In this document: positions 2,280-22,451 of the stretch, piece by piece
How positions within the stretch are numbered: position 1 is the stretch's first letter
Layout of the letters: each line of letters opens with the position of its first letter
Assembly (NCBI GenBank): GCA_018434245.1
Contig: JAHDPQ010000112.1
Span: forward strand, 1-38,143
From: Oscillospiraceae bacterium
Lineage (GTDB): Bacteria; Bacillota; Clostridia; Oscillospirales; Ruminococcaceae
Length of the DNA stretch: 38,143 nt
Direction: 5' to 3'
Notes under the pieces: model-generated
Told to the model about the DNA's origin: nothing
Database searches by the model: none
Seen by the model: only the letters and a program-made list of their open reading frames with translations
Position numbers and translations under genes: made by a program

Positions 2280-3080
2280 ATGAAGGTCTTAATCATACCG
2301 TTATGTCTGCTTCTGCTACTGCCCGGATGCTGGACGGCAGGCGCCTTGCAGTCAGTTTCGCAGCAGACTGCCGCGGAGCAGAAAGTTCTGGTGCAGAAGC
2401 AGGCTTCCTTGGAGCAAGAAGCTTCGGAGTATTGGGCGGAGGCCGCCCCCACCGTAGAAAATGAGCCTGCAGAAGCTCTGTATTCCCCGGCGGAGGGCTT
2501 TGCTGTGTACCCCCTTTCCCTCGAGCTGGAAGAACGGATTGCAGGAAACTCCTGGCAGGAAAACGACTTCCTTGCCCTGGAGGATTTGCACTACCTAACC
2601 CTACTCCATCTAGATTTTGAGGGAAGCATCCGGCAGGGGGAGATGATTGTCCACCACAGTCTGGCCCGGGAGGTAGCCGATATCTTTTGGGAACTTTATC
2701 AGGTCGGGTACCCCATTCACCGGGTATCCCTGGTGGAGGAGTTTGACTGTGATGACACCGCTTCCATGGAAGCGAACAACACCTCCTGCTTCAACATGCG
2801 CCTGATTTCCGGAACTCAGCGCCCCTCCAATCACAGCTACGGCAGCGCGGTGGACCTGAACCCCCTGCAAAATCCCTATGTCACGGCAAGCGCGGTGCGG
2901 CCCTCCCGGGAGTATCTGGAGCGGGGCGATGCAAGGCCGGGAATGATTACCGAAGGGGATCTCTGCTACGAGGCCTTTGTCTCTCGGGGCTGGAGCTGGG
3001 GAGGTTATTGGCCCCACCCCGACTACCAGCATTTTGAAAAGTCGGTGGAGTCGTCCAGCCAAAATCGCGGTTTAAAGTAA
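2280..3080 (+). CDS. M15-family D,D-/L,D-carboxypeptidase-like lipoprotein
   Basis: A 266-residue lipoprotein of the peptidase M15 (VanY/L-Ala-D-Glu peptidase-like) group, probably trimming peptidoglycan stem peptides outside the membrane. The ATG at 2280 follows AAGGGAGAG. A hydrophobic stretch ends in the lipobox LPGC with Cys17. Zinc-site motifs are SNHSYGSAVDLNP (His185, Asp192) and the C-terminal WPHPDYQHFE (His251, Glu253), as expected for M15C-type enzymes. Residues 25-70 are a polar linker. It is followed by its own terminator. The exact bond cleaved cannot be read from sequence. Confidence 0.85.
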   Translation: MKVLIIPLCLLLLLPGCWTAGALQSVSQQTAAEQKVLVQKQASLEQEASEYWAEAAPTVENEPAEALYSPAEGFAVYPLSLELEERIAGNSWQENDFLALEDLHYLTLLHLDFEGSIRQGEMIVHHSLAREVADIFWELYQVGYPIHRVSLVEEFDCDDTASMEANNTSCFNMRLISGTQRPSNHSYGSAVDLNPLQNPYVTASAVRPSREYLERGDARPGMITEGDLCYEAFVSRGWSWGGYWPHPDYQHFEKSVESSSQNRGLK

Positions 3081-3135
3081 AAAGTATGCCTTAGCTAAAC
3101 TCGTTATGCTGATCGGTCACATCGCTATAAATACA

Positions 3136-3162
3136 AAAAACCCGCATCATAATGGGGTTTTT
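3136..3162 (+). terminator. Intrinsic terminator after peptidase gene
   Basis: An 8-bp stem AAAAACCC / GGGTTTTT with an 11-nt loop ends in a T-run. It separates the peptidase gene from the mntP transcription unit. Confidence 0.75.
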
Positions 3163-3167
3163 CTGCC

Positions 3168-3196
3168 TTGACATTCCCGGATGGCCATGTTAGAAT
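3168..3196 (+). promoter_or_regulatory. SigA-type promoter of the mntP unit
   Basis: TTGACA (3168-3173), 17-nt spacer, TAGAAT (3191-3196). Transcription would begin near 3203, exactly at the start of the riboswitch. Confidence 0.85.
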
Positions 3197-3202
3197 CCAT
3201 AT

Positions 3203-3346
3203 GATTCACTCGTGGGGGAGTAGTCAGCGCAATAGCGTGGCAAGTCAACATGCTGACCTTTTCGGGTCTGGCTTGTCTTAAAAGGCGAGACTCACGTGTA
3301 TCCCAAGTCCTTGGGGCTTTTGGGCTGCGCGTGGTTTTTATGAGGG
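3203..3346 (+). promoter_or_regulatory. yybP-ykoY manganese riboswitch aptamer
   Basis: The leader carries the two conserved pieces of the yybP-ykoY class: GGGGGAGTAGTCAGC at about 3214-3228 and GTCAACATGCTGAC at about 3244-3257. A basal helix forms between about 3208-3214 and 3294-3300 with one mismatch. A strong terminator follows, and the downstream gene is mntP. In this family Mn2+ binding stabilises an anti-terminating fold, so export is switched on when manganese is high. Aptamer edges are approximate. Confidence 0.88.
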
Positions 3347-3383
3347 AAACCCAGACAGTCCAAGGGGATTGTCTGGGTTTTTT
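3347..3383 (+). terminator. Riboswitch expression-platform terminator
   Basis: AAACCCAGACAGTCC pairs with GGATTGTCTGGGTTT around the loop AAGG (about 15 bp including one wobble), followed by T6. Its place between aptamer and mntP makes it the regulated terminator. Confidence 0.88.
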
Positions 3384-3419
3384 GTTGTAGCATATAACCC
3401 AGCATGGAAAGAAGTGCAT

Positions 3420-3505
3420 GGGGGAAGATAGAAGTGCCGTCGTGGCGGCATCGATCTATCCCCCACAGGACGGGCTGCCTGCAATTAATGCAAGCCCTTA
3501 ATGTA
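3420..3505 (+). other. Two further leader stem-loops before mntP
   Basis: Downstream of the terminator, a long hairpin pairs GGGGGAAGATAGA (from 3420) with TCTATCCCCC (about 3455-3464). A second joins GGGCT (3472-3476) to AGCCC. They lie in the mntP 5' untranslated region just before the ribosome binding site. Role unknown; mRNA stability or a second control point is possible. Confidence 0.5.
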
Positions 3506-3519
3506 AGAGGAGAGTAGAC

Positions 3520-4149
3520 ATGGGTTTTTTGGAGCTGTTTCTCATTGCGGTTGGTCTTTCAGCGGATGCCTTTGCGGTTTCGGTCTGTACCGGGCTGACG
3601 CTGGAGGAGTTTAAGTGGAAGAAGGCGCTGATTACAGGGCTTTACTTTGGCATCTTTCAGGCGGCTATGCCCCTGACCGGCTATCTGGTGGGACACTTCT
3701 TTGCGGATATGATTGTGGCCTATGACCACTGGATTGCCTTTTTGTTGCTGGCGCTCATCGGCGGTAAGATGATTCGGGAAAGCTACGAAAATCCCGAATG
3801 TTGCAGCGATGCCTACCAGATTCCCACCAGCCCTTCTGCGGAAGGGGAGGGCACTCTTTACATCACGCAGGAGGCTTCTTTGGGTCCCGCCCGAATGCTG
3901 CCTCTGGCTCTGGCCACCAGCATTGATGCTCTGGCGGTGGGGGTAACCTTTTCCTTTCTGTCGGTGAAGATTATGCCTGCGGTTTCCTTTATCGGCATGA
4001 CCACTCTGGCCCTTTCCATGGTGGGCGTCAAGGTGGGCCACACCTTCGGTTCCCGATACAAGTCCAAAGCGGAGCGAATTGGCGGCGTCATCCTCATTCT
4101 CATAGGGCTGAAAATCCTACTGGAGCATCTGGGCGTCATCGGATTCTAA
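3520..4149 (+). CDS. mntP: Manganese efflux pump MntP
   Basis: A 209-residue integral membrane Mn2+ exporter of the MntP (YebN/DUF204) family. Six hydrophobic segments are visible in two halves. Each half carries the conserved acidic motif: ADAFAVSV (Asp16) in helix 1 and SIDALAVGV in helix 4. The halves are joined by a polar cytoplasmic loop of about 35 residues (PECCSDAYQIPTS and on), making the protein slightly longer than the usual 185-190 residues. The ATG at 3520 follows AGAGGAGAG. The yybP-ykoY riboswitch upstream agrees with the assignment and implies induction by excess manganese. Confidence 0.95.
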   Translation: MGFLELFLIAVGLSADAFAVSVCTGLTLEEFKWKKALITGLYFGIFQAAMPLTGYLVGHFFADMIVAYDHWIAFLLLALIGGKMIRESYENPECCSDAYQIPTSPSAEGEGTLYITQEASLGPARMLPLALATSIDALAVGVTFSFLSVKIMPAVSFIGMTTLALSMVGVKVGHTFGSRYKSKAERIGGVILILIGLKILLEHLGVIGF

Positions 4150-4185
4150 CGGCGCAACCTGTTGCGATTTTCCTTGGGACAGGCT

Positions 4186-4214
4186 TTGCGTGGGACTGGG
4201 GTTTATGATACAAT
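4186..4214 (+). promoter_or_regulatory. Promoter of yjbQ-exoA
   Basis: TTGCGT (4186-4191), 17-nt spacer, TACAAT (4209-4214), 30 nt before the GTG start. A small inverted repeat CGCAAC-CT-GTTGCG at 4153-4166 followed by ATTTTCCTT may weakly terminate mntP. Confidence 0.65.
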
Positions 4215-4243
4215 GAATATCATCACCAAGGAGCTGATTTATC

Positions 4244-4657
4244 GTGTCGGTCCGGGAATTTAACCTTTCTACTCCGCGGGAAGGGATGATCAACATTACC
4301 TCACACGTGCAGCAGGCAGTGAAGGAAAGCGGCATCACCAGCGGACTTTGTGTCGTCTTTACCCCTCACACCACGGCGGCCATCACCATCAATGAAAACG
4401 CAGACCCCGACGTGATGCGGGATTTTATACTGGGAATGGATACCGCCTTTCCCGACAACAGGGCCTTTCGCCACGGGGAGGGGAATTCCCCCGCTCACCT
4501 CAAATCCAGCAGCGTAGGCTGTTCCGAAACCATTATAGTGGAACAGGGCCGCCTGCTGCTGGGGACTTGGCAGGGCATTTGGTTCTGCGAGTTTGACGGA
4601 CCCAGAAGCCGCCGCTTTTGGGTGAAAATCATTTCCGACGGGGGAGTGGGAGCATGA
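4244..4657 (+). CDS. YjbQ / UPF0047 family protein
   Basis: A 137-residue single-domain protein of the YjbQ/UPF0047 family, members of which show weak thiamine-phosphate synthase activity; the physiological role is unsettled. Signature motifs are TPHTTAAITINENADPDV (His42), RHGEGNSPAHLKSS (His77, His85) and LLGTWQGIWFCEFDGPRSR. Full family length. The start is GTG at 4244, preceded by AAGGAG with a suitable gap. The stop codon overlaps the exoA start (ATGA), so the two genes are translationally coupled. Confidence 0.9.
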   Translation: MSVREFNLSTPREGMINITSHVQQAVKESGITSGLCVVFTPHTTAAITINENADPDVMRDFILGMDTAFPDNRAFRHGEGNSPAHLKSSSVGCSETIIVEQGRLLLGTWQGIWFCEFDGPRSRRFWVKIISDGGVGA

Positions 4658-5409
4658 AGCTGGTATCATGGAACGTCAACGGGCTGCGGGCCTGTTTGAA
4701 CAAGGGTTTTCTGGAAGCTTTTGAAGCGCTGGATGCCGATATTGTTTGCCTGCAGGAAACTAAAATGGAGCAGGGTCAGGCGGAAATCGACCTGCCTGGC
4801 TATCACGAGATTTGGAACAGCGCACAGAAGAAGGGCTATTCCGGCACCGCTGTCTTTACCCGCCAAATCCCTAAGGCTCAGTCTTTGGGGATGGGGGTGG
4901 AGGAAATGGACGGGGAGGGCCGGGTGATTCTGCTGGATTACGAGGATTTCTATCTGGTCAACGTCTACACCCCCAACTCCCAGCGGGAGCTGGCCCGTCT
5001 GGATTACCGCATGGAGTGGGAGGATACCTTCCGGGGCTTTCTGCAGGAGTTGGATAGCCGCCGCCCTGTCATCATCTGCGGGGATTTGAACGTGGCCCAT
5101 CAGGAAATTGACATCAAAAACGCCAAGAGCAACCGCCGCAATGCCGGCTTTACCGATGAAGAGCGGGGCAAGATGACCCAGCTTCTGGAGGCAGGCTTTT
5201 CCGATACCTTCCGCACCCTGTATCCAGACCGGGAGGATGCCTACACCTGGTGGTCCTTCCGGGCTAACGCCAGAGAGAGGAACATCGGCTGGCGACTGGA
5301 CTACTTTTTGGCCTCTAACCGCCTGATGGAGAAGGTGACCGCCGCCGAAATCCACCCCCATGTCATGGGCAGCGACCACTGCCCCATTTCGTTGGAAATC
5401 GACCTGTAA
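4654..5409 (+). CDS. exoA: Exodeoxyribonuclease III (ExoA/Xth family)
   Basis: A 251-residue AP endonuclease / 3'-5' exonuclease used in base-excision repair. All family motifs are present: MKLVSWNVNGLRA, CLQETK (catalytic Glu), YTPNSQREL, CGDLNVAH (Asp/Asn active site), WRLDYFLAS and the C-terminal GSDHCPI (His). The ATG at 4654 overlaps the yjbQ stop; a longer frame from 4618 would add 12 residues absent from the family. A terminator follows. Confidence 0.95.
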   Translation: MKLVSWNVNGLRACLNKGFLEAFEALDADIVCLQETKMEQGQAEIDLPGYHEIWNSAQKKGYSGTAVFTRQIPKAQSLGMGVEEMDGEGRVILLDYEDFYLVNVYTPNSQRELARLDYRMEWEDTFRGFLQELDSRRPVIICGDLNVAHQEIDIKNAKSNRRNAGFTDEERGKMTQLLEAGFSDTFRTLYPDREDAYTWWSFRANARERNIGWRLDYFLASNRLMEKVTAAEIHPHVMGSDHCPISLEIDL

Positions 5410-10569: not shown

Positions 10570-11910
10570 TTGTTGAGCATCTTCGATAAGCGGCTCAAGG
10601 GAGTCCGTGCTCCTCATTGCAAAAACACAATGGACAGCGCAACGCAAAAAATGCCTGTGCCGGACAAAGTGTATATTTGCATGTCCCAGCATATGGGACC
10701 CCCTTGCGATGTTCTGGTAAAGCCGGGGGATGAGGTGAAGGTGGGTCAGGTCATTGGTGATTCGGGGGCGTTTCTCAGTTCCCCCATTCACTCCAGCGTC
10801 TCGGGAAAGGTGACGGGGATTGACCAGATCATCATGCCCAATGGCACCCGTTCCAAGACGGTGGTCATTGAAACCGACAAGGAGCAAACCTACCACGAAA
10901 GTGTAAAAAAACCCGAGGTGACGGATCGGGAAAGCTTTCTCAAAGCGGTGCGGGGTGCCGGTCTGGTTGGTTTGGGAGGCGCAGGCTTTCCCTCCCATAT
11001 TAAATTTAACCCCAAGAATCTGGACGAGGTAGATACCCTCATCATCAATGGGGCCGAATGCGAACCTTACATCACCTCCGACTACCGCACCATTATGGAG
11101 CGGGGGGAGGATGTGATGACAGGCATCCAAGCCGTGATGAAGTATCTGAATATTCCCACCTGCATCATCGGCATTGAGGATAACAAGCCCAAGGGCATCG
11201 CCCGGATGCAGGAGCTGGCCAAAGGTGTGCCCGGAGTCCGGGTACAGTCGTTGGTCGCCCGTTACCCTCAGGGAGCGGAAAAGGTGCTGATCTTTGAGAC
11301 CACCGGGCGCATCGTTCCCGAGGGCAAGCTGCCCGCCGATGTTGGCTGCATCGTCAACAACATCACCACCATTGCTCAGTTGGCCCGCTTCCTCAAGGAC
11401 GGCCTTCCCCTCATTGCCAAATGTGTGACGGTGGATGGCGGAGCCATTGCCAAGCCCCAGAACGTTCAGGCTTTGATCGGAACTCCCATCAAAGAAGTCG
11501 TCGACTTTTGCGGCGGGTACTCCAAGGAGCCCCGCAAGCTGCTGATGGGCGGCCCCATGATGGGCACCGCTCTCTATGACGAGACTTACCCCATCCTCAA
11601 GAACAACAACGCCATTCTGGCTTTTGATGAGTCACAGGTGGAGGGCTATGCCGAAACTGCCTGCATTCGCTGCGGGCGCTGTGTCCGCTCCTGCCCCATG
11701 AACCTGATGCCCCTGCGCATTGAAGACGCCTTTATCAAGGATGATTATCAGGGACTTCAGGACTACAAAGTCAACCTCTGCATCGAGTGCGGCTGCTGCG
11801 CCTACTCCTGCCCCGCCAAGCGCCATCTGGTTCAGACTCACCGCTTGGCCAAGGCAAGGCTGCGCCGGTGGACGCAGGAGCAAACTGCAAAAGAAGGGGG
11901 AAAAGGATAA
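10570..11910 (+). CDS. rnfC: Rnf complex subunit C
   Basis: A 446-residue membrane-associated subunit of the ferredoxin:NAD+ oxidoreductase, carrying the NADH site and iron-sulfur clusters. The TTG start at 10570 lies 7 nt after AGGAGGAGG; the next codon is also TTG. The N-terminal lipoyl-like region has KPGDEVKVGQVIGDS. The NADH/FMN region has GLVGLGGAGFPSHIKF and INGAECEPYI. Two [4Fe-4S] motifs lie near residues 365-405 (CIRCGRCVRSCP and CIECGCCAYSCP). The first of six contiguous rnf genes in the standard order C-D-G-E-A-B. Confidence 0.97.
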   Translation: MLSIFDKRLKGVRAPHCKNTMDSATQKMPVPDKVYICMSQHMGPPCDVLVKPGDEVKVGQVIGDSGAFLSSPIHSSVSGKVTGIDQIIMPNGTRSKTVVIETDKEQTYHESVKKPEVTDRESFLKAVRGAGLVGLGGAGFPSHIKFNPKNLDEVDTLIINGAECEPYITSDYRTIMERGEDVMTGIQAVMKYLNIPTCIIGIEDNKPKGIARMQELAKGVPGVRVQSLVARYPQGAEKVLIFETTGRIVPEGKLPADVGCIVNNITTIAQLARFLKDGLPLIAKCVTVDGGAIAKPQNVQALIGTPIKEVVDFCGGYSKEPRKLLMGGPMMGTALYDETYPILKNNNAILAFDESQVEGYAETACIRCGRCVRSCPMNLMPLRIEDAFIKDDYQGLQDYKVNLCIECGCCAYSCPAKRHLVQTHRLAKARLRRWTQEQTAKEGGKG

Positions 11911-11911
11911 C

Positions 11912-12883
11912 ATGACACAGAATTTAGTCATCACCTCTTCGCCTCATTTCCGCGCGAAGGATACCACACGCACCATTATGCTGGATGTGCTGATTGCACT
12001 TTGCCCCGCCCTGATTGCCTCGGTGATCTGGTTTGGCCCCCGGGCCCTGCTGGTGTCGGCGGTCTGCGTGGGAGCCAGCGTCCTGTTCGAGTATACTTAT
12101 CGCAAGCTGATGCATCTGGACATGACCATCGGAGACCTTTCCGCCGCTGTTACCGGCTTGCTGCTGGCCTTTAACCTGCCCTCCAGCATCCCCTTGTGGA
12201 TGGCGGTCATCGGCTGCTTTGTCTCCATTATCATCATCAAGCAGTTGTTTGGCGGCATTGGCAAGAACTTTGCCAACCCCGCCATTGTAGGGCGGATTGT
12301 CCTGCTCATCTCCTTTGCGACTCCCATGACAAACTGGCCTGTTCCTCTGGGCACCGATGCTGTTACCGGGCCCACTCCCTTGGGCATGGTCAGCGCCATG
12401 GAGGCTGCCGGCGTAGATGCCGCCTCCTCCGCTACACCGCCCTCTCTGCCTACTTACGTCGATATGTTTTTGGGCAAGATCGGCGGCTCTCTGGGCGAGA
12501 CCTGCACCTTGGCTCTGCTCATCGGCTTTGTCTATCTGGTGATCCGCAAGGTCATCACCATTACCGAGCCGGTGGCCTTTGTGGGAACGGTCTTTGTGCT
12601 CAGCTGGCTGCTGGGTGCCGACCCCATCTTTCACGTTCTCGCAGGAGGTGTCATGCTGGGAGCTATCTTTATGGGCACCGACTACGTCACCACTCCCACC
12701 ACCGAGACCGGCCGCCTGATTTTTGGCATCGGCGCAGGAATTTTGACCGTTGTCATCCGCCTGTACGGAGCCTATCCTGAGGGCGTCAGCTTTGCCATTC
12801 TCATCATGAACATTGTCACCCCACATATCGACAACCTCACCCGCATCAAAGCATTGGGCGCGGAAGGAGGCAAAAAGGCATGA
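11912..12883 (+). CDS. rnfD: Rnf complex subunit D
   Basis: A 323-residue polytopic membrane subunit with a covalently bound FMN. The ATG at 11912 lies one base after the rnfC stop and follows GGGGGAAAAGG. FMN attachment motif: AVTGPTPLGM, where Thr155 is the likely site; the common TGAT is TGPT here. Several hydrophobic helices flank it (NPAIVGRIVLL; GGVMLGAIFMGTDYVTTPTT). The stop overlaps the rnfG start. Confidence 0.96.
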   Translation: MTQNLVITSSPHFRAKDTTRTIMLDVLIALCPALIASVIWFGPRALLVSAVCVGASVLFEYTYRKLMHLDMTIGDLSAAVTGLLLAFNLPSSIPLWMAVIGCFVSIIIIKQLFGGIGKNFANPAIVGRIVLLISFATPMTNWPVPLGTDAVTGPTPLGMVSAMEAAGVDAASSATPPSLPTYVDMFLGKIGGSLGETCTLALLIGFVYLVIRKVITITEPVAFVGTVFVLSWLLGADPIFHVLAGGVMLGAIFMGTDYVTTPTTETGRLIFGIGAGILTVVIRLYGAYPEGVSFAILIMNIVTPHIDNLTRIKALGAEGGKKA

Positions 12884-13419
12884 AGGATTTTAAGAAATTC
12901 CGGGACGGCTTTATCGGTCCTGTGATCATTCTGGCGGTCATCAGCCTGATCATCACTTGGGCGGTCGCCGCGACCTTTGGACTGACCTACGCTGAAATTG
13001 AAAAGGCGGAGTTTGAAAAAGCAAGGCTGGCCCGTATCGAGGTTCTGGCTGCTGCCGACGACTTTACCAAGTACGAAACTCAACTGCCCGAAGGCGTCAT
13101 GGAGGCCTACCGTGCCAACAACGGTGCCGGCTTTGTCTTTCAGGCCAGCGCCAAGGGCTACGATGGCCAGGTTCCCTTTATGATCGGCCTTGATGCCGAA
13201 GGAAAGATTGCCGGCATCAAAATGATGACCAACAACGAAACCAAAGGCCTTGGTTCCCGGGTGGGAGAGCCCAAATATCTGGAGCTTTACCTGGGAATGG
13301 AAGGTGACCCCGATCAAGTGGATTCCATCACCGGCGCAACCAAAACCTCCAATGCACTGAAAAATTCTCTGCGAGCCGCCCAGGAAGCTTATGAGCAGCT
13401 CAAGGATATGAATCCATAA
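12880..13419 (+). CDS. rnfG: Rnf complex subunit G
   Basis: A 179-residue subunit with one N-terminal membrane anchor (about 11-33) and an extracytoplasmic FMN-binding domain. The FMN attachment motif is SITGATKTSNAL with Thr154 as the flavinylated residue; NNETKGLGSRVGEP is also typical. ATGA overlap with rnfD. Confidence 0.96.
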   Translation: MKDFKKFRDGFIGPVIILAVISLIITWAVAATFGLTYAEIEKAEFEKARLARIEVLAAADDFTKYETQLPEGVMEAYRANNGAGFVFQASAKGYDGQVPFMIGLDAEGKIAGIKMMTNNETKGLGSRVGEPKYLELYLGMEGDPDQVDSITGATKTSNALKNSLRAAQEAYEQLKDMNP

Positions 13420-13436
13420 GAAAGGGGCAGGCGAGT

Positions 13437-14123
13437 ATGGAACAGAAAAAAAGCAAGATGAGCATTCTGATCAACGGAATCATCAAAGAAAACCCGGTTC
13501 TGGTGCTGGTACTGGGCACCTGCCCGACTTTGGCGGTCTCCACCATGGCGGTCAACGGTCTGGGCATGGGTGCAGCGGCTACAGTGGTGCTGGTGTTTTC
13601 CAACATCCTGATTGCGCTGCTCAAGGACGTCATTCCCGAAAAAGTACGCATTCCCTGTTACATCGTAGTCATTGCCGGTCTGGTGACAGTGGTACAGCTC
13701 TTTGTGCAGGCTTATTTCCAGAGCATTTATGAAGCACTGGGTATCTTCCTACCACTGATTGTGGTAAACTGCATTATTCTGGGCCGGGCCGAGATGTTCG
13801 CCAACAAGAACAGCGTGCTGAACAGCGCTTTGGACGGTGTCGGCATGGGCCTGGGCTTTACAGTGGCCCTCACCTTTATCGGCTGCGTCCGGGAGGTTCT
13901 TGGTTCTGGCAGCATCTTTGGAATGCAGATTCACAGCATTGATCCCATGACCATCTTTCTGCTGGCTCCCGGCGGCTTCTTCATCTTTGGATGCACCATC
14001 GCACTGGTCAACCGCTTGACCAAGGGCAGGGGAGTTAAGCGCAAAAGCTTTGGATGCGAAGGCTGCCCTGCTGCCAGTTCTTGCAGTCAGGCAGAAAAAG
14101 CGGAAGGGGGCTGTGAGGCATGA
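13437..14123 (+). CDS. rnfE: Rnf complex subunit E
   Basis: A 228-residue integral membrane subunit with about six helices. Motifs: NPVLVLVLGTCPTLAVST, ALGIFLPLIVVNCIILGRAE and ALDGVGMGLGFTVALT, including the conserved membrane Cys that, together with RnfA, is thought to hold an intramembrane iron-sulfur centre. A hydrophilic tail contains CEGCPAASSC. The stop overlaps the rnfA start. Confidence 0.96.
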   Translation: MEQKKSKMSILINGIIKENPVLVLVLGTCPTLAVSTMAVNGLGMGAAATVVLVFSNILIALLKDVIPEKVRIPCYIVVIAGLVTVVQLFVQAYFQSIYEALGIFLPLIVVNCIILGRAEMFANKNSVLNSALDGVGMGLGFTVALTFIGCVREVLGSGSIFGMQIHSIDPMTIFLLAPGGFFIFGCTIALVNRLTKGRGVKRKSFGCEGCPAASSCSQAEKAEGGCEA

Positions 14124-14710
14124 AGCAGATTGTCATCATTCTCTTTTCCGCCATTCTGGTGGACAACTTCGTCCTTTCCAAGTTTCTGGGCATCTGCCCT
14201 TTCTTGGGCGTTTCCAAAAAGCTGGATTCCGCCATTGGAATGAGCATTGCGGTTACCTTTGTCATGGTGCTGGCCACCGCCACCACCTGGCCAGTCTACT
14301 ACTATGTGCTGGTTCCCAACCATCTGACTTACCTCAACACCATCCTGTTTATCCTCATCATCGCCGCTCTGGTTCAGCTGGTGGAGATTATTTTGAAGAA
14401 GTACGTGCCCTCCCTGCATCGTTCTCTGGGCGTGTATCTGCCTCTCATTACCACCAACTGCGCCGTGCTGGGCGTAACGCTCCTCAATATTGAGGAGACC
14501 TACGGATTTTTACACGCCATCATCAATGCAACCGGAGCCGGTCTTGGTTTTATGCTGGCCATGGTGCTGTTTGCCGGAGTTCGCTCCAAAATGGAAAACG
14601 CTGTCATTACCAAAAGCTTTGATGGGATTCCCATCACCTTGATTGCCGCTTCCATCGTATCTTTGGCCTTTATGGGCTTTTCCGGCATCATTGACGGAAT
14701 CTTTGGTTAA
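14120..14710 (+). CDS. rnfA: Rnf complex subunit A
   Basis: A 196-residue six-helix membrane subunit, paralogous to RnfE and inverted relative to it in the membrane. Motifs: NFVLSKFLGICPFLGVS (membrane Cys), SLGVYLPLITTNCAVLG and NATGAGLGFMLAMVLFAG. ATGA overlap with rnfE indicates coupled translation. Confidence 0.96.
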   Translation: MKQIVIILFSAILVDNFVLSKFLGICPFLGVSKKLDSAIGMSIAVTFVMVLATATTWPVYYYVLVPNHLTYLNTILFILIIAALVQLVEIILKKYVPSLHRSLGVYLPLITTNCAVLGVTLLNIEETYGFLHAIINATGAGLGFMLAMVLFAGVRSKMENAVITKSFDGIPITLIAASIVSLAFMGFSGIIDGIFG

Positions 14711-17242: not shown

Positions 17243-17620
17243 ATGACGATGAAATGTTATCACTGTGGGCAAAATGAAGCGGAACACTGTTTTGTCCTTC
17301 AAATTATGGCAAAAACTGCCGAAATTCACCTGTGCAGCGGGTGCTTGGCAAGCTTTCAGCAGCACATCGCCCTGATGATGGGGTATGCAGGGGAAGAAAC
17401 TCCTTCTCCCAACGGCTATCCTCACACCCTGCAAATGCGGGAACTAGGCAACGACCCCTTCCCTCTGGATGCGGGGGAGGAATTTAAACGCCGCAGAATC
17501 CTCATTGAGCTCAAGACCCGCCTGCGGGAAGCCGTAGAGCGGGAGAATTATGAGCTGGCGGCACAGCTTAGGGATGAGATCCTGAGAAAAGAAGAAGGTG
17601 TATTTATTTATGATACATAG
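17243..17620 (+). CDS. mcsA: McsA-like zinc-finger/UVR protein (short)
   Basis: A 125-residue McsA relative; McsA normally activates the McsB arginine kinase and adapts substrates to ClpC. It has one N-terminal C4 zinc finger (CYHC and CSGC) and a C-terminal UVR motif (EFKRRRILIELKTRLREAVE; ENYELAAQLRDEI). It is shorter than typical McsA and lacks the second pair of CxxC motifs. The start is ATG at 17243 or 17249; the AAAGGG ribosome binding site fits neither spacing perfectly. The frame overlaps clpC by 11 nt. No mcsB follows. Confidence 0.85.
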   Translation: MTMKCYHCGQNEAEHCFVLQIMAKTAEIHLCSGCLASFQQHIALMMGYAGEETPSPNGYPHTLQMRELGNDPFPLDAGEEFKRRRILIELKTRLREAVERENYELAAQLRDEILRKEEGVFIYDT

Positions 17621-20084
17621 GGATATTTTTACCGCCTCGGCAAAAGAAGTGATGCAGGGTGCTTTTCGGCTGGCCATGGAAATGCGCCACAGCTTTTTGG
17701 GTAGCGAGCACTTGCTGTGGAGCCTTGCCCGGGACGGAGTGGGCAGTGCCTCGCAGGTGCTGCAGCGAGCGGGATTGGACTGCTCTATCATCCGGGACAT
17801 TATCCAGCGCTATGACGGTCAGGGCAAAGCGGAAACTCTGCAGGCCAAGGGCCTTGCTCCCGATACCGACCGGGTGCTGGAGCTGGCCGAGGCTCAGGCC
17901 AAGAAGCTGGGCCACAGCAGGGTAGAGCCGGAGCATCTGCTGCTGGGCATCCTGCAGGAACCGGAAAGCGTAGCTGCTAAGATCATCGTTTCCACCGGAG
18001 TGCCCTTGGATCGACTCACCACCGATATTCTGGAGCTGCTGGGCAAGGGTTGGCCCCGCCCCCAGCTCAAAGGCGGCGATAAAAAAGAGCAGCCCTCCAC
18101 CAAGACTTTGGAGCAGTATAGCCGGGATTTGATCGAGCTGGCCAACCAAGGCAAGCTGGACCCGGTCATCGGCCGGGAGGAGGAAATCGCCCGGGTGGTG
18201 CAGATTCTTTCCCGCCGGACCAAGAACAACCCTGTCCTCATCGGCGAGCCCGGTGTGGGTAAGACTGCCGTGGCCGAGGGACTGGCCCAGCGGATTGCCG
18301 ATGGAGAAGTGCCGGAAAACCTATTGGGAATGCGGGTTCTGATGCTGGACCTGACCAAGATGGTGTCCGGTGCTAAGTTCCGGGGGGATTTTGAGGAGCG
18401 GATCAAAGGCTGCATCGAGGAAGCGGCCGCCGCCGACAACATCATCCTGTTTATCGACGAGCTCCACACCCTCATCGGCACGGGAGCGGCCGAAGGCTCC
18501 ATGGATGCGGCTAACATCCTCAAGCCCGCCCTGTCCCGTGGGGAAATTCAGGTGGTGGGAGCTACTACCCTGACCGAATACCGCAAGCATATTGAAAAAG
18601 ATTCCGCTTTGGAGCGGCGGTTCCAGTCAGTTCTGGTGGTTGAGCCCTCTCAGGAGGACACCATCCAGATTCTGGAGGGACTGCGCAGCCGTTATGAGGA
18701 GCATCACAAACTGAGGATTACCGATGAAGCGCTGCAGGCGTCGGTGGGACTTTCTGCCCGATATATTCAGGACCGCTATCTTCCCGATAAGGCCATCGAC
18801 CTGATGGATGAAGCCGCTTCCCGGGTGCGGACGGGAAACCTCACCGTGCCGGAGGAATTTAAGGAAATGGAGGGCCGTATCACCGCCCTTTCCTCGGAAA
18901 AAGAGGAGGCGGTGCGGGGTCAGGACTTTGAACGGGCGGCTATGCTGCGGGATTTGCAGCGTCAGTTGCAGGATGATCTAAACCGCAAGCGGGAGGCGTG
19001 GAAGGCAACCCGTTCCGGCAGCGTTGCCGCCGAGGATATTGCCGCAGTGGTGGGCGCATGGACCGGGATTCCTGTCACCATGCTTACCGAGGACGAAAGC
19101 CAGCGCCTGCTGCGTCTGGAGGAGACCCTCCACCAGCGGGTCATCGGCCAGGAGGAGGCGGTGGCTGCCGTTTCCAAGGCCATTCGCCGGGGCAGAGTGG
19201 GGCTCAAGGACCCCAAGCGCCCCACGGGAGTCTTCCTCTTTTTAGGCCCCACCGGTGTGGGCAAAACCGAGCTGTGCAAGGCTCTGGCAGCGGCCATGTT
19301 CCAAGACGAAAACGCCATGATCCGGGTAGATATGAGCGAATACATGGAGCGTCATACCGTCTCCAAGCTGATCGGCTCCCCTCCCGGGTATGTGGGCTAC
19401 GACGATGGCGGCCAGCTCACTGAGCGGGTTCGCCGCAAACCCTACAGCGTTATCCTTTTTGACGAGATCGAGAAGGCCCGTCCCGATGTTTGGAGCGCCC
19501 TGCTTCAAATCATGGAGGATGGCCGCCTCACCGATGCTCAGGGCCGCACGGTTGACTTTAAGAACGCCATCATCGTCATGACCTCCAATCTGGGGGCCAA
19601 AAACATCACCGGAAAACAGCGGGGTACCCTTGGGTTCTCTGCCGCCGGCAGCGAGGAAGGGGAAACCCGGCCTCTCTCCGAAATTAAGGAGAAGGTGATG
19701 GCTGAGGTCAAGGATGCCTTTACCCCTGAGTTCTTCAACCGCATCGACGACATTATTGTGTTTCACCAGCTGGGCAGCGACCATATCCGCAGAATTGCCC
19801 GGAATATGGTGGGAATCCTCTCCCAGCGGGTGGCTGATCTGGGAGTCGCCATGGAAATTGATGACGAAGCCATCGACCTTTTGGTGACAAAAGGTTTTGA
19901 TCCGGCCTATGGGGCAAGACCCCTGCGCCGCGTGATCCAGACCTGTATCGAGGACGCCGCCGCCACCGCCTATCTGGAGGGCAGCTACCGGGAAGGGGAG
20001 ACCATGCTGGTCACCGCCCGGGACGGAGAAATTATACTGGAGAAAAAAGCGGAGCAAAAACTTCTGGCTACGGCAGCACAATAG
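17610..20084 (+). CDS. clpC: Clp protease ATPase ClpC
   Basis: An 824-residue Hsp100 AAA+ unfoldase that feeds ClpP. The N-domain repeats lie at about 1-145 (SAKEVMQGAFRLAMEMRHSF; EHLLLGILQEPESVA). AAA-1 Walker A is GEPGVGKT (212-219). The ClpC-type middle domain with a UVR motif lies at about 415-470 (EEAVRGQDFERAAMLRDLQ). AAA-2 Walker A is GPTGVGKT (about 546-553). The ATG at 17610 gives the standard N-terminus. Translated from inside the mcsA end, so coupled. The CtsR box upstream of ctsR governs it. Confidence 0.97.
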   Translation: MIHRDIFTASAKEVMQGAFRLAMEMRHSFLGSEHLLWSLARDGVGSASQVLQRAGLDCSIIRDIIQRYDGQGKAETLQAKGLAPDTDRVLELAEAQAKKLGHSRVEPEHLLLGILQEPESVAAKIIVSTGVPLDRLTTDILELLGKGWPRPQLKGGDKKEQPSTKTLEQYSRDLIELANQGKLDPVIGREEEIARVVQILSRRTKNNPVLIGEPGVGKTAVAEGLAQRIADGEVPENLLGMRVLMLDLTKMVSGAKFRGDFEERIKGCIEEAAAADNIILFIDELHTLIGTGAAEGSMDAANILKPALSRGEIQVVGATTLTEYRKHIEKDSALERRFQSVLVVEPSQEDTIQILEGLRSRYEEHHKLRITDEALQASVGLSARYIQDRYLPDKAIDLMDEAASRVRTGNLTVPEEFKEMEGRITALSSEKEEAVRGQDFERAAMLRDLQRQLQDDLNRKREAWKATRSGSVAAEDIAAVVGAWTGIPVTMLTEDESQRLLRLEETLHQRVIGQEEAVAAVSKAIRRGRVGLKDPKRPTGVFLFLGPTGVGKTELCKALAAAMFQDENAMIRVDMSEYMERHTVSKLIGSPPGYVGYDDGGQLTERVRRKPYSVILFDEIEKARPDVWSALLQIMEDGRLTDAQGRTVDFKNAIIVMTSNLGAKNITGKQRGTLGFSAAGSEEGETRPLSEIKEKVMAEVKDAFTPEFFNRIDDIIVFHQLGSDHIRRIARNMVGILSQRVADLGVAMEIDDEAIDLLVTKGFDPAYGARPLRRVIQTCIEDAAATAYLEGSYREGETMLVTARDGEIILEKKAEQKLLATAAQ

Positions 20085-20314: not shown

Positions 20315-22054
20315 CTAAGCTCCCCGACGGGTTGCTACAGGCTGAGCCTGACGGCTCTCATCCTGACGGCGAATTTCCGCCCGCTTGATTTTGCCGGAAA
20401 AGGTTTTGGGAAGCTCCTCTACAAATTCCACAATGCGGGGATATTTATAAGGGGCGGTCTGCTGCTTGACATGTTCCTGCAGCTCCTGAATGAGGGTGCT
20501 GCAAGGGGAAAAACCGCTGGTGAGCACCACAGTTGCCTTAACTACCGTGCCCCGGACGGGGTCGGCTGCTCCCGTGACGGCACACTCCCGGACGGCGGGA
20601 TGCTCCATCAGCACGCTTTCAATTTCAAAGGGCCCGATGCGGTAGCCGGATGCCTTGATGACGTCGTCCACCCGCCCCACATACCAGTAAAAGCCGTCCT
20701 CATCCCGCCGGGCCGTGTCGCCGGTGTGATACATATTGTCGTGCCATGCTTTGTAGGTCAAATCACGGTCCCGGTAGTAGCCGCAGAAGAGCCCCACCTG
20801 CATCTGGTCGTGGCGGGTGCGGACAATCAGCTCGCCCACCTCGCCGTTGGGGACGCTGTTGCCGTCGGCATCCACCAGATCGATTTCGTAAAGGGGAGAG
20901 CATTTGCCCATGGAACCGGGTTTGGGCTCGGTTCCCAGCAGGTTAACGGTGAGGGCGGTGGTTTCGCTTTGGCCAAAGGCCTCCATAATTTTTACGCCGG
21001 TATGCTGGTAGAAACGGTTGAATACCTCGGGATTGAGGGCTTCTCCGGCGGTGGTGGCATGGCGGATGCTGCTCAAATCGTAGTGCTCCATTCCTTCCTT
21101 GATGAGGAAGCGGTAGATGGTGGGTGGCGCGCAGAAGGTGGTTACCTTGTATTGGGATACCATCCGCATCAAATCGGCGGGGATGAACTTGGTGAAATCG
21201 TAGACAAAGATGGAGGCGCCCACAAACCACTGGCCATAGATTTTTCCCCAGCTGGCCTTGGCCCAGCCGGTATCCGCCACTGTCATGTGTAGGTCGTCTC
21301 CGGTGATGCCGTGCCAGTATTTGGCGCTGATGATGTGGCCGATGGGATAGGTGTGGTTGTGATAGGCCATTTTGGGATTTCCGGTAGTGCCGGAGGTAAA
21401 GTACAGCAGCAAAGGCTCCTCCGCCTTGGTGGGGATTCTCTCGTTCAGGGGCTGGTGGAAGCAAAGCTGGTTGTTGAAATCGATCCAGCCGGGACGCTTG
21501 CCGCTGTCAAACTGAGAGCCTGCCACTAGAAACTTGCCTTTTATCCCATCGTATTGTTGACAGGCGGCATCGGCATGGTCGGCGGTTTCTCCCTCTGCGG
21601 TGGCGATGATATACCGGACATCGGCGCTGCGGAAGCGGTAGAGGTAATCTTTGGCGGTGAGCATGTTGGTGGAGTTGATAGCCACCGCGCCCAGCTTATG
21701 GAGCGCCAGTATGCAGAACCAGAACTGATAGTGGCGGCTGAGTACCAGCATCACCATATCGCCCTTTTGAACCCCATGATCCTGCAGCATACCCGCCGTC
21801 AGGTCGGAGTAGTACTTCATCTGCCCAAAGGTAAATATTTTTTCTTCCCCGTGCTCGTTGGTCCATACCATGGCCCGGCGGTCCGGCTGCAAGGCGGCAA
21901 TTTGATCCACCACGTCGTAGGCAAAGTTAAAATTGGTGGGGTAGACAGGCTCAAAGGTGTCAAGCACGCCGTTTTCGTCGAAGGTCTCCTTGCAGAAGCT
22001 TTGATAAAGGGTCTCTACCATGATAGTTTGATTGGCTGTGTAAGTGTTTTCCAT
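20315..22054 (-). CDS. AMP-forming acyl-CoA synthetase (MACS-like)
   Basis: A 579-residue ANL-superfamily ligase that activates a carboxylic acid to acyl-AMP and then acyl-CoA. Motifs: the P-loop YFTSGTTGNPKMAYHNH, the adenylate motif GEALNPEVFNRF with EAFGQSETT, YHTGDTARRDEDGFYWYVGR, the hinge region DDVIKASGYRIGPFEIESVL, and the catalytic-lysine motif PKTFSGKIKRAEIR. It resembles medium-chain acyl-CoA synthetases; the substrate cannot be told from sequence. The start is ATG at 22054, 8 nt after GGAGG; upstream in-frame ATGs extend into the leader. It is the only gene in its unit and sits behind a complete T-box leader, so expression should depend on an uncharged tRNA. This points to a role in amino acid supply. 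Confidence 0.92.
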   Translation of the reverse strand: MENTYTANQTIMVETLYQSFCKETFDENGVLDTFEPVYPTNFNFAYDVVDQIAALQPDRRAMVWTNEHGEEKIFTFGQMKYYSDLTAGMLQDHGVQKGDMVMLVLSRHYQFWFCILALHKLGAVAINSTNMLTAKDYLYRFRSADVRYIIATAEGETADHADAACQQYDGIKGKFLVAGSQFDSGKRPGWIDFNNQLCFHQPLNERIPTKAEEPLLLYFTSGTTGNPKMAYHNHTYPIGHIISAKYWHGITGDDLHMTVADTGWAKASWGKIYGQWFVGASIFVYDFTKFIPADLMRMVSQYKVTTFCAPPTIYRFLIKEGMEHYDLSSIRHATTAGEALNPEVFNRFYQHTGVKIMEAFGQSETTALTVNLLGTEPKPGSMGKCSPLYEIDLVDADGNSVPNGEVGELIVRTRHDQMQVGLFCGYYRDRDLTYKAWHDNMYHTGDTARRDEDGFYWYVGRVDDVIKASGYRIGPFEIESVLMEHPAVRECAVTGAADPVRGTVVKATVVLTSGFSPCSTLIQELQEHVKQQTAPYKYPRIVEFVEELPKTFSGKIKRAEIRRQDESRQAQPVATRRGA

Positions 22055-22142
22055 CTTCTGTTCCTCCATAATCGTTAGTAATGGCGGAAGTGAGAAAACG
22101 AAATGAGCGGGGAAGGAGCGTCTTTTTTGAGGGAAAACAAAA

Positions 22143-22416
22143 AATGCTCCATCCCACAATGGGACGAGCATTTACCCGTGTTACCACCCAAATTGTACAG
22201 AAAATAATCCTGTACCACTCATTACGGATTCCAACAAATCCTCGGCCTATAACGCTGCCTTTGCGTAGACATCTACTTGCGCAATGCGCTTTCTTGTCTC
22301 GGCTCCAGGGCTACAGTTCCTGCCGTTTGCCACCGGTTTGCACCAACCACCGGCTCTCTGAGGGCAAAGGATGGAAGGAACCCTCCCTGTCACTGCCTTT
22401 TGGGAAATCTTTAATT
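22143..22416 (-). promoter_or_regulatory. T-box leader with terminator/antiterminator
   Basis: Read on the minus strand, Stem I has AGAGAGCCGGTGGTTGGTGC and the pairing AACCGG, nearly identical to the family consensus. The base helix is CAGGG / CCCTG with GA/GGAG kink-turn bases. Further hairpins follow (GGATT..AATCC; GTACAG..CTGTAC), then the T-box TTTGGGTGGTAACACGGG (plus-strand 22175-22189 is its complement; the usual ACCGCG is AACACG). Last comes the terminator AAATGCTC..TCCCA-TTG-TGGGA..GAGCATTT plus T-run (22143-22173). The specifier lies in GGAACTGTAGCCC. Depending on alignment it reads CUG (Leu), UGU (Cys) or GUA (Val), and I cannot decide. Confidence 0.95.
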
Positions 22417-22422
22417 TTTATC

Positions 22423-22451
22423 AGGATACCACGGTGAATCTGTTTTGTCAA
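22423..22451 (-). promoter_or_regulatory. Promoter of the T-box leader
   Basis: On the minus strand: TTGACA (22451-22446), 17-nt spacer, TATCCT (22428-22423). It diverges from the his promoter only 46 bp away. Confidence 0.85.

Follow-up and report, generated by a model that had tools for sequence, protein, structure and literature searches.

A T-box leader with a valine specifier ahead of an acyl-CoA ligase gene in an Oscillospiraceae genome, and a proposed tRNA-controlled entry to reductive valine synthesis

The leader and its specifier

We describe a T-box leader RNA and the gene behind it, a single AMP-forming acyl-CoA ligase gene, in a 38,143-nucleotide stretch of DNA from an Oscillospiraceae bacterium (NCBI GenBank assembly GCA_018434245.1, contig JAHDPQ010000112.1, positions 1 to 38,143; the whole stretch is called the window here, and its features are placed in Table 1). 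The Rfam model RF00230 matches the leader completely, over model positions 1-219 and above its cut-off of 93 bits, and is the sole Rfam model over its gathering score in the whole window. The motifs AGAGAG, GGTTGGTG and GGGTGGTAACACGG are all present, and the leader is the top-scoring T-box among the ten of its own genome. This confirms the leader as real and complete, as a first-pass annotation had read it from the letters when it placed a complete T-box leader ahead of a single AMP-forming CoA ligase; the limits drawn there, 20315-22451, turn out to be the end of the open reading frame and the start of the -35 match.

Table 1. Positions of the ligase gene and of the parts of its leader in the window
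Feature	Position	Strand	Basis and remarks
AMP-forming acyl-CoA ligase, 579 aa; predicted isobutyrate (short branched acid)-CoA ligase	20315..22054	-	Pfam, NCBIfam, PDB relatives
Intrinsic terminator hairpin and T run	22140..22173	-	Overlaps 3' side of antiterminator; consensus match and fold
T-box leader RNA, RF00230	22157..22402	-	121 bits, E 1.8e-26
T-box sequence GGGTGGTAACACGG	22176..22189	-	UGGU complementary to ACCA (discriminator A)
Stem I with AGAGAG and GGTTGGTG	22302..22402	-	Stem I model R1, 80.3 bits; window is one of the 26 model-building sequences
Specifier codon GUA (valine), then G	22312..22314	-	Rfam columns of control leaders; kept in orthologues
Promoter match, sigma-70-type, TTGACA-17-TATCCT	22423..22451	-	Upstream of leader; 10/12 consensus positions, consensus match only

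The 96-nt antiterminator/terminator region is predicted to fold at -33.3 kcal/mol (z -3.5), and at -19.0 kcal/mol (z -2.2) when the 3' side of the terminator is left off. Both folds are thus predicted and their stretches overlap, so that antiterminator and terminator appear to be mutually exclusive. By consensus match a terminator-like stem lies at 22167-22149 (-) with a T run after it; the region holds two terminator-like sites against a mean of 1.0 in shuffled sequence, and three promoter-like sites against a mean of 0.9.

The specifier of the leader is GUA, for valine, as read at the same RF00230 columns as in the other nine T-boxes of the genome. At these columns we find UAC ahead of tyrS, UUC ahead of pheT, ACC ahead of thrS, UGC ahead of cysS, UGG ahead of a trpB-like gene, CUC ahead of leuA (contig C131), AUC ahead of a paralogue of the ligase with a helix-turn-helix (HTH)-cupin gene or domain (C181), UAC ahead of a beta-eliminating lyase (C121) and CUC ahead of a FadD-like ligase (C54). 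The lyase and the FadD-like ligase were named by profile scan and the control genes by reading their translations, and in six of six controls (tyrS, pheT, thrS, cysS, trpB-like and leuA) the codon is the one expected from the gene, which fixes the register of the window specifier. Reading in a fixed register had given ACA for tyrS and GCG for cysS, where an extra base shifts the register. GUA is conserved in all three orthologues (96, 86 and 71% identity). Moreover, a tRNA-Val(UAC) is encoded in the genome (30 of 41 tRNA loci examined), and the tRNA-Val species (UAC), (GAC) and (CAC) all end in ACCA, complementary to the UGGU of the T-loop; the specifier thus fits a host tRNA, and UGGU its discriminator A.

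Two other codons, CUG and UGU, were considered and rejected. Val-type leaders elsewhere keep GUA or GUC while the preceding bases vary, and the cysteine reading (UGU) is made still less likely by the T-loop of this genome's own cysS leader, which has UGGA, not UGGU. The first-pass annotation had left the choice among CUG, UGU and GUA and had thought Leu or Val the best fit; the alignment to RF00230 and the comparison of orthologous leaders that it proposed leave GUA and valine standing and remove the leucine reading. The codon belongs to a branched-chain amino acid rather than to one unrelated to branched-chain or aromatic amino acids, and the leader is present in close relatives rather than being private to this contig.

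On contig C121 of the same genome (L043, 594-2398), the Tyr-specifier leader precedes an enzyme of the tyrosine phenol-lyase/tryptophanase family, an arrangement which hints that tyrosine might be made under starvation by a normally catabolic lyase.

The ligase, its relatives and their leaders

The ligase carries PF00501 (AMP-binding) and PF13193 (AMP-binding_C), both over gathering scores, and so belongs to the ANL superfamily. MbcS (methylbutyryl-CoA synthetase, NF047394) is its best NCBIfam model, and its best solved relative is MacsMa (3etc), at 661 bits against 362 for the second, aligned over residues 17-567. MbcS is reported to use 2-methylbutyrate and isobutyrate and to handle isovalerate poorly (PMC10026030), and MacsMa to prefer 2-methylbutyrate (PMC10455477). 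The MbcS substrate range fits the presence of Ile and Val leaders on ligases of this type, with a separate FadD-like ligase near Leu leaders, and judging from these relationships the substrate of the window ligase is most likely isobutyrate, which would be converted to isobutyryl-CoA.

The same family match brings in another possible role, in that MbcS is reported to serve branched-chain fatty acid synthesis in Staphylococcus aureus (PMC10026030). The window ligase might then prime branched-chain membrane lipids with isobutyryl-CoA at valine shortage, the T-box sensing valine as the usual source of the primer. We consider this unlikely as the main role. It predicts no clustering with genes of 2-oxoacid oxidoreductases and aminotransferases, yet some Ile/Val T-box relatives show such clusters, and it predicts no link of ligase copy number with the absence of ilvC, yet such a link is seen (both below). 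Lipid priming could be a side role.

Relatives of the ligase (E 1e-100 or better) occur in 40 of 61 genomes, the window's own included, and a collection scan yielded at least 80 named ligase loci, with Oscillospiraceae among the named relatives. Their leaders were sought with a Stem I covariance model built from 26 leaders, which superseded a T-box finder based on regular expressions that had missed or misread several known leaders. The model was run on 80 named loci (35 matches), on 73 genome-stretch sources and the window (30 matches), on 20 further loci (2 matches) and on 44 more (29 matches). Among the matches listed, a T-box stands ahead of the ligase in 30 of the 80 named loci; L162 is interrupted by a contig end, and for some ligases the contig ends too soon for a T-box to be visible.

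In all, 81 T-boxes with distinct Stem I sequences precede a ligase of this type, 58 with an Ile and 23 with a Val specifier, and no other amino acid was found among these 81 leaders. In the fixed register the codons are AUC in 57, GUA in 17 and GUC in five; the remaining two leaders, L137 (GGG in the fixed register) and L058 (GTG; 21.7 bits, E 0.058), are misaligned and read by eye as AUC and GUA, respectively. A T-box core downstream of Stem I is found in 76 of the 81 by a strict pattern, and the other five show GTGGT by eye. Outside this count are L142:10930, which has no assigned gene, and the AUC leaders of L028, L030 and L031, which were found by Rfam and were never in the Stem I searches. 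Of the 81 T-boxes, eight stand directly before the ligase and 73 reach it via an HTH-cupin gene or domain.

In many relatives the ligase is fused to this N-terminal HTH and cupin (L063:8709-10976, L022, L025, L027-L031 and L036); HTH_19/HTH_3 and Cupin_2 were scanned with Pfam for L063 and for L065, where the module is a separate gene, and elsewhere the module was recognised from long frames and by eye. The Val ligase of the window and its orthologues in the genus are without it. HTH-cupin plus ligase pairs without a detected T-box also occur in Bacteroidota, Geobacter/Pelobacter and archaeal records (among L118-L180), and the module is possibly a second sensor or an autoregulator.

Leucine leaders (CUC) stand before other genes: six before LeuA-like genes (HMGL), one before a FadD-like ligase (own C54) and one before leuA (own C131), and a FadD-like ligase gene neighbours five of the six HMGL loci. 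The FadD-like ligase on C54 (L044; T-box 4763-4864, gene 2841-4658, - strand) has NF009233 as its best NCBIfam model (757 against 832 bits) and is a candidate isovalerate-CoA ligase. At L063:5891-8356 one protein joins a FadD-like ligase with a xylose isomerase-like TIM barrel; its gene comes after a short LeuA-like one that has a Leu T-box ahead of it.

Ligases of this kind form a broad family, and the substrate given here for the window enzyme is a prediction. The enzyme might act instead on an aryl acetate, on 2-methylbutyrate or on an unbranched short-chain acid, with GUA following descent and not substrate; in fact the nearest Ile-specifier ligases are 58-65% identical to it. Three observations make us regard this as quite improbable. 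The same genome holds an Ile-specifier paralogue of the ligase (L041, C181). A quick tree was made of 57 Ile and 23 Val ligases, 80 in all (L194, of 404 aa, was dropped). In it the Val labels cluster: they require four changes, of which well-supported branches force at least three, whereas shuffled labels need 20 on average; here the window ligase groups with three Val ligases of its genus (support 100), nested among Ile ligases. Finally, Val and Ile ligases are told apart best by columns 268 and 265, both of which lie in one six-residue loop, W264-W269. Residue 265 is Ala in 23/23 Val and Gly in 49/57 Ile ligases, and residue 332 is His in 23/23 Val ligases, with Tyr in 42/57 and His in 12/57 of the Ile ligases. 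Within the genus of the window the loop reads WAKASW in four of four Val and WAKSVW in three of four Ile ligases, and residue 332 is His in 4/4 Val and Tyr in 4/4 Ile. Residues K266, W269, C308 and G361, invariant in all 80 ligases, we take to be the counterparts of residues discussed for the MacsMa acyl pocket; a text search of PMC10455477 for these residues gave no mention of them.

Pathway context and the proposed mechanism

Neighbouring genes in relatives suggest what the acyl-CoA is for. In L063 a Leu T-box, a LeuA-like gene, a FadD-like ligase, an Ile T-box with an HTH-cupin-ligase and a Val T-box with a second HTH-cupin-ligase are followed by a branched-chain aminotransferase, one further protein without assignment, VorB (in two pieces), VorA and VorC. 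Besides G058, there are eight tandem ligase pairs among the matches listed, none of which was used for the Stem I model; in seven (L261-L265, L267 and L268) an AUC (Ile) leader is followed by a GUA (Val) leader, and in L266 the second HTH-cupin-ligase starts about 65 bases after the first ligase with no T-box between. Genes for Vor-type 2-oxoacid:ferredoxin oxidoreductases adjoin all eight pairs, and an aminotransferase match lies inside six of the eight stretches (partial in two). Vor and aminotransferase matches occur together in L063, L089, L159, L261, L263, L264, L265, L267 and L268. The L063 aminotransferase and the L065 VorB are over their NCBIfam cut-offs (475 against 307 and 554 against 399, respectively). 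In L166, titled Methanobacteriaceae archaeon, HTH-cupin, ligase and Vor genes stand together with no T-box detected. L065:1165-1803 encodes a protein of some 212 aa that carries the motif GHYGTGKTN; it has counterparts adjoining VorB in most mapped Vor loci, and neither Pfam nor NCBIfam matched it at the thresholds applied.

Such clusters could also be catabolic. Enzymes of the Vor type can run in both directions, and fermentation of branched-chain amino acids is common among gut anaerobes, so that ligase and Vor might act in a Stickland-like direction, the T-box being a leftover. This we judge very unlikely: T-boxes induce their genes when an amino acid runs short, which is the opposite of what catabolism would call for, and Ile or Val specifiers are conserved across many loci.

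The genome of the window (G000; 91% complete, 185 contigs) holds no ilvC match over the cut-off (best match 20 bits, cut-off 226), and neither do seven of ten genus-mates (G001-G007), whereas G008-G010 have the gene. Vor genes including VorB are present on C30 and a branched-chain aminotransferase, 52% identical to that of L063, on C26. Among the 61 genomes, ilvC was not found in 16 of 19 with a T-box ligase, compared with 11 of 42 others (Fisher p 5e-5, which ignores kinship); in this table the T-box column was compiled by hand, G003 (L058) is not counted as T-box-positive, and G021, with ilvC fragments below cut-off only, is counted as ilvC-positive. The association is also seen in copy number: among 147 genomes of the order that are at least 90% complete, with ligases counted at E 1e-140 or better, at least two copies are present in 51/71 genomes without ilvC and in 8/76 with it (p 1e-14, again ignoring kinship). 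PF01855 does not discriminate and was set aside as a test, since 61/61 genomes have it.

We therefore propose, with considerable though not full confidence, that the valine T-box switches on the activation of isobutyrate for reductive carboxylation to valine. Isobutyrate is a common gut product of amino acid fermentation. At valine shortage, uncharged tRNA-Val(UAC) would pair with the GUA specifier and the UGGU of the T-loop and stabilise the antiterminator, and the ligase would be transcribed as a single gene. The MacsMa/MbcS-like ligase would turn isobutyrate into isobutyryl-CoA; a VorB-type 2-oxoacid:ferredoxin oxidoreductase, encoded elsewhere, would carboxylate this reductively to 2-oxoisovalerate with reduced ferredoxin; and a branched-chain aminotransferase would convert 2-oxoisovalerate to valine. 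LeuA, behind its Leu T-box, could take 2-oxoisovalerate toward leucine. The reductive pathway of rumen anaerobes would thus replace the missing IlvC route, with its entry step under the control of tRNA charging; substrate, direction of flux and response to tRNA are what we infer here. The first-pass annotation had likewise supposed that the ligase supports amino acid supply by way of a ferredoxin-dependent 2-oxoacid oxidoreductase, and this view gains support from the Val specifier, the Vor and aminotransferase clusters of relatives and the lack of a detected ilvC.

Several points weigh against this proposal. The base following the specifier is G, where the Rfam consensus has A, and the T-loops of the 76 ligase leaders found by pattern read UGGC in three as against UGGU in 73. 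The MbcS score of the ligase is 446.9 bits against a curated cut-off of 850, which makes it a relative and not a member. There is no Vor gene at the window or at most mapped ligase loci, many of these stretches being short; the Vor genes (L087) and aminotransferase (L236) of the own genome are on other contigs, with no T-box in the stretches searched, and in L065 VorA and VorC are under their NCBIfam cut-offs (120 of 402 and 104 of 235). The absence of ilvC from the own genome is not final because the genome is 91% complete, and an IlvD-like protein is just under its cut-off (583 of 618 bits). Lastly, three of the 19 T-box-ligase genomes have ilvC, the Ile-Val tandem cluster L268 (G113) sits in an ilvC-positive genome, and of the 71 genomes without ilvC, 20 fall short of two ligase copies (ten have one, ten have none).

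Around the ligase itself, a ClpB-like gene (17598-20084) lies on the opposite strand and is oriented toward it, and hisZ-, hisG-, hisC- and hisB-type genes lie on the other strand, pointing away. Rnf genes are found at 10570-14710 (+), encoding RnfC-type, RnfD-type and FMN-binding subunits and two Rnf-Nqr membrane subunits. The first-pass annotation had taken adjacent Rnf genes to make the route feasible; the genes are indeed there, but since they end more than 5 kb away with other genes between, their adjacency proves nothing.

Known systems and biological meaning

The leader is of the kind that RF00230 describes in Firmicutes, where such leaders stand before synthetase genes and genes for the synthesis or transport of amino acids. 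It shares with these its Stem I, its specifier, its T-box sequence and its antiterminator and terminator, and differs from them in controlling an acyl-CoA ligase of a proposed reductive route. The ligase shares its best NCBIfam model with MbcS of Staphylococcus aureus, whose known member uses short branched acids; MbcS differs in serving lipid synthesis, and 'T-box' does not occur in the main text of PMC10026030 as far as that text is accessible. MacsMa of Methanosarcina acetivorans (PDB 3etc) is by far the closest solved relative and differs in being archaeal. The conversions are those of reductive carboxylation in rumen anaerobes, described by Allison and co-workers, in which isobutyrate yields valine and 2-methylbutyrate isoleucine (as cited in PMC7356843); relative to that pathway, the gene set and the tRNA-sensing control are what the genomes suggest here. 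In the open-licence PMC literature we recognised no paper that places an acyl-CoA ligase of this route under a T-box, and in the T-box surveys PMC3766115 and PMC2494555 no acyl-CoA or CoA ligase term occurs in the main text, a mention in their gene tables being possible. T-box, enzyme type and reductive pathway are thus each known, and their combination is, as far as we have seen, new.

For the order as a whole within Clostridia, we lean toward a broader picture, which we hold to be somewhat better than an even prospect. A reductive route that starts from scavenged isobutyrate and 2-methylbutyrate may have taken the place of the acetolactate route on many occasions, with ligases each under a T-box of the matching amino acid; specifier and acyl pocket would have changed in step on three or more occasions, the codon thereby reporting the substrate, and the fused HTH-cupin would be a second sensor. 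Branched short-chain acids are long-known growth factors of rumen anaerobes (Allison 1962, as cited in PMC7356843), and our analysis offers candidate genes, a regulatory logic and possibly a codon-predictable substrate for this rumen-type dependence on branched acids in the many ilvC-less genomes of the window's order. If true, the T-box regulon would extend to the entry of an external fermentation acid into amino acid synthesis, and cross-feeding, in the form of a need for isobutyrate or 2-methylbutyrate, would be predictable from genome sequence.

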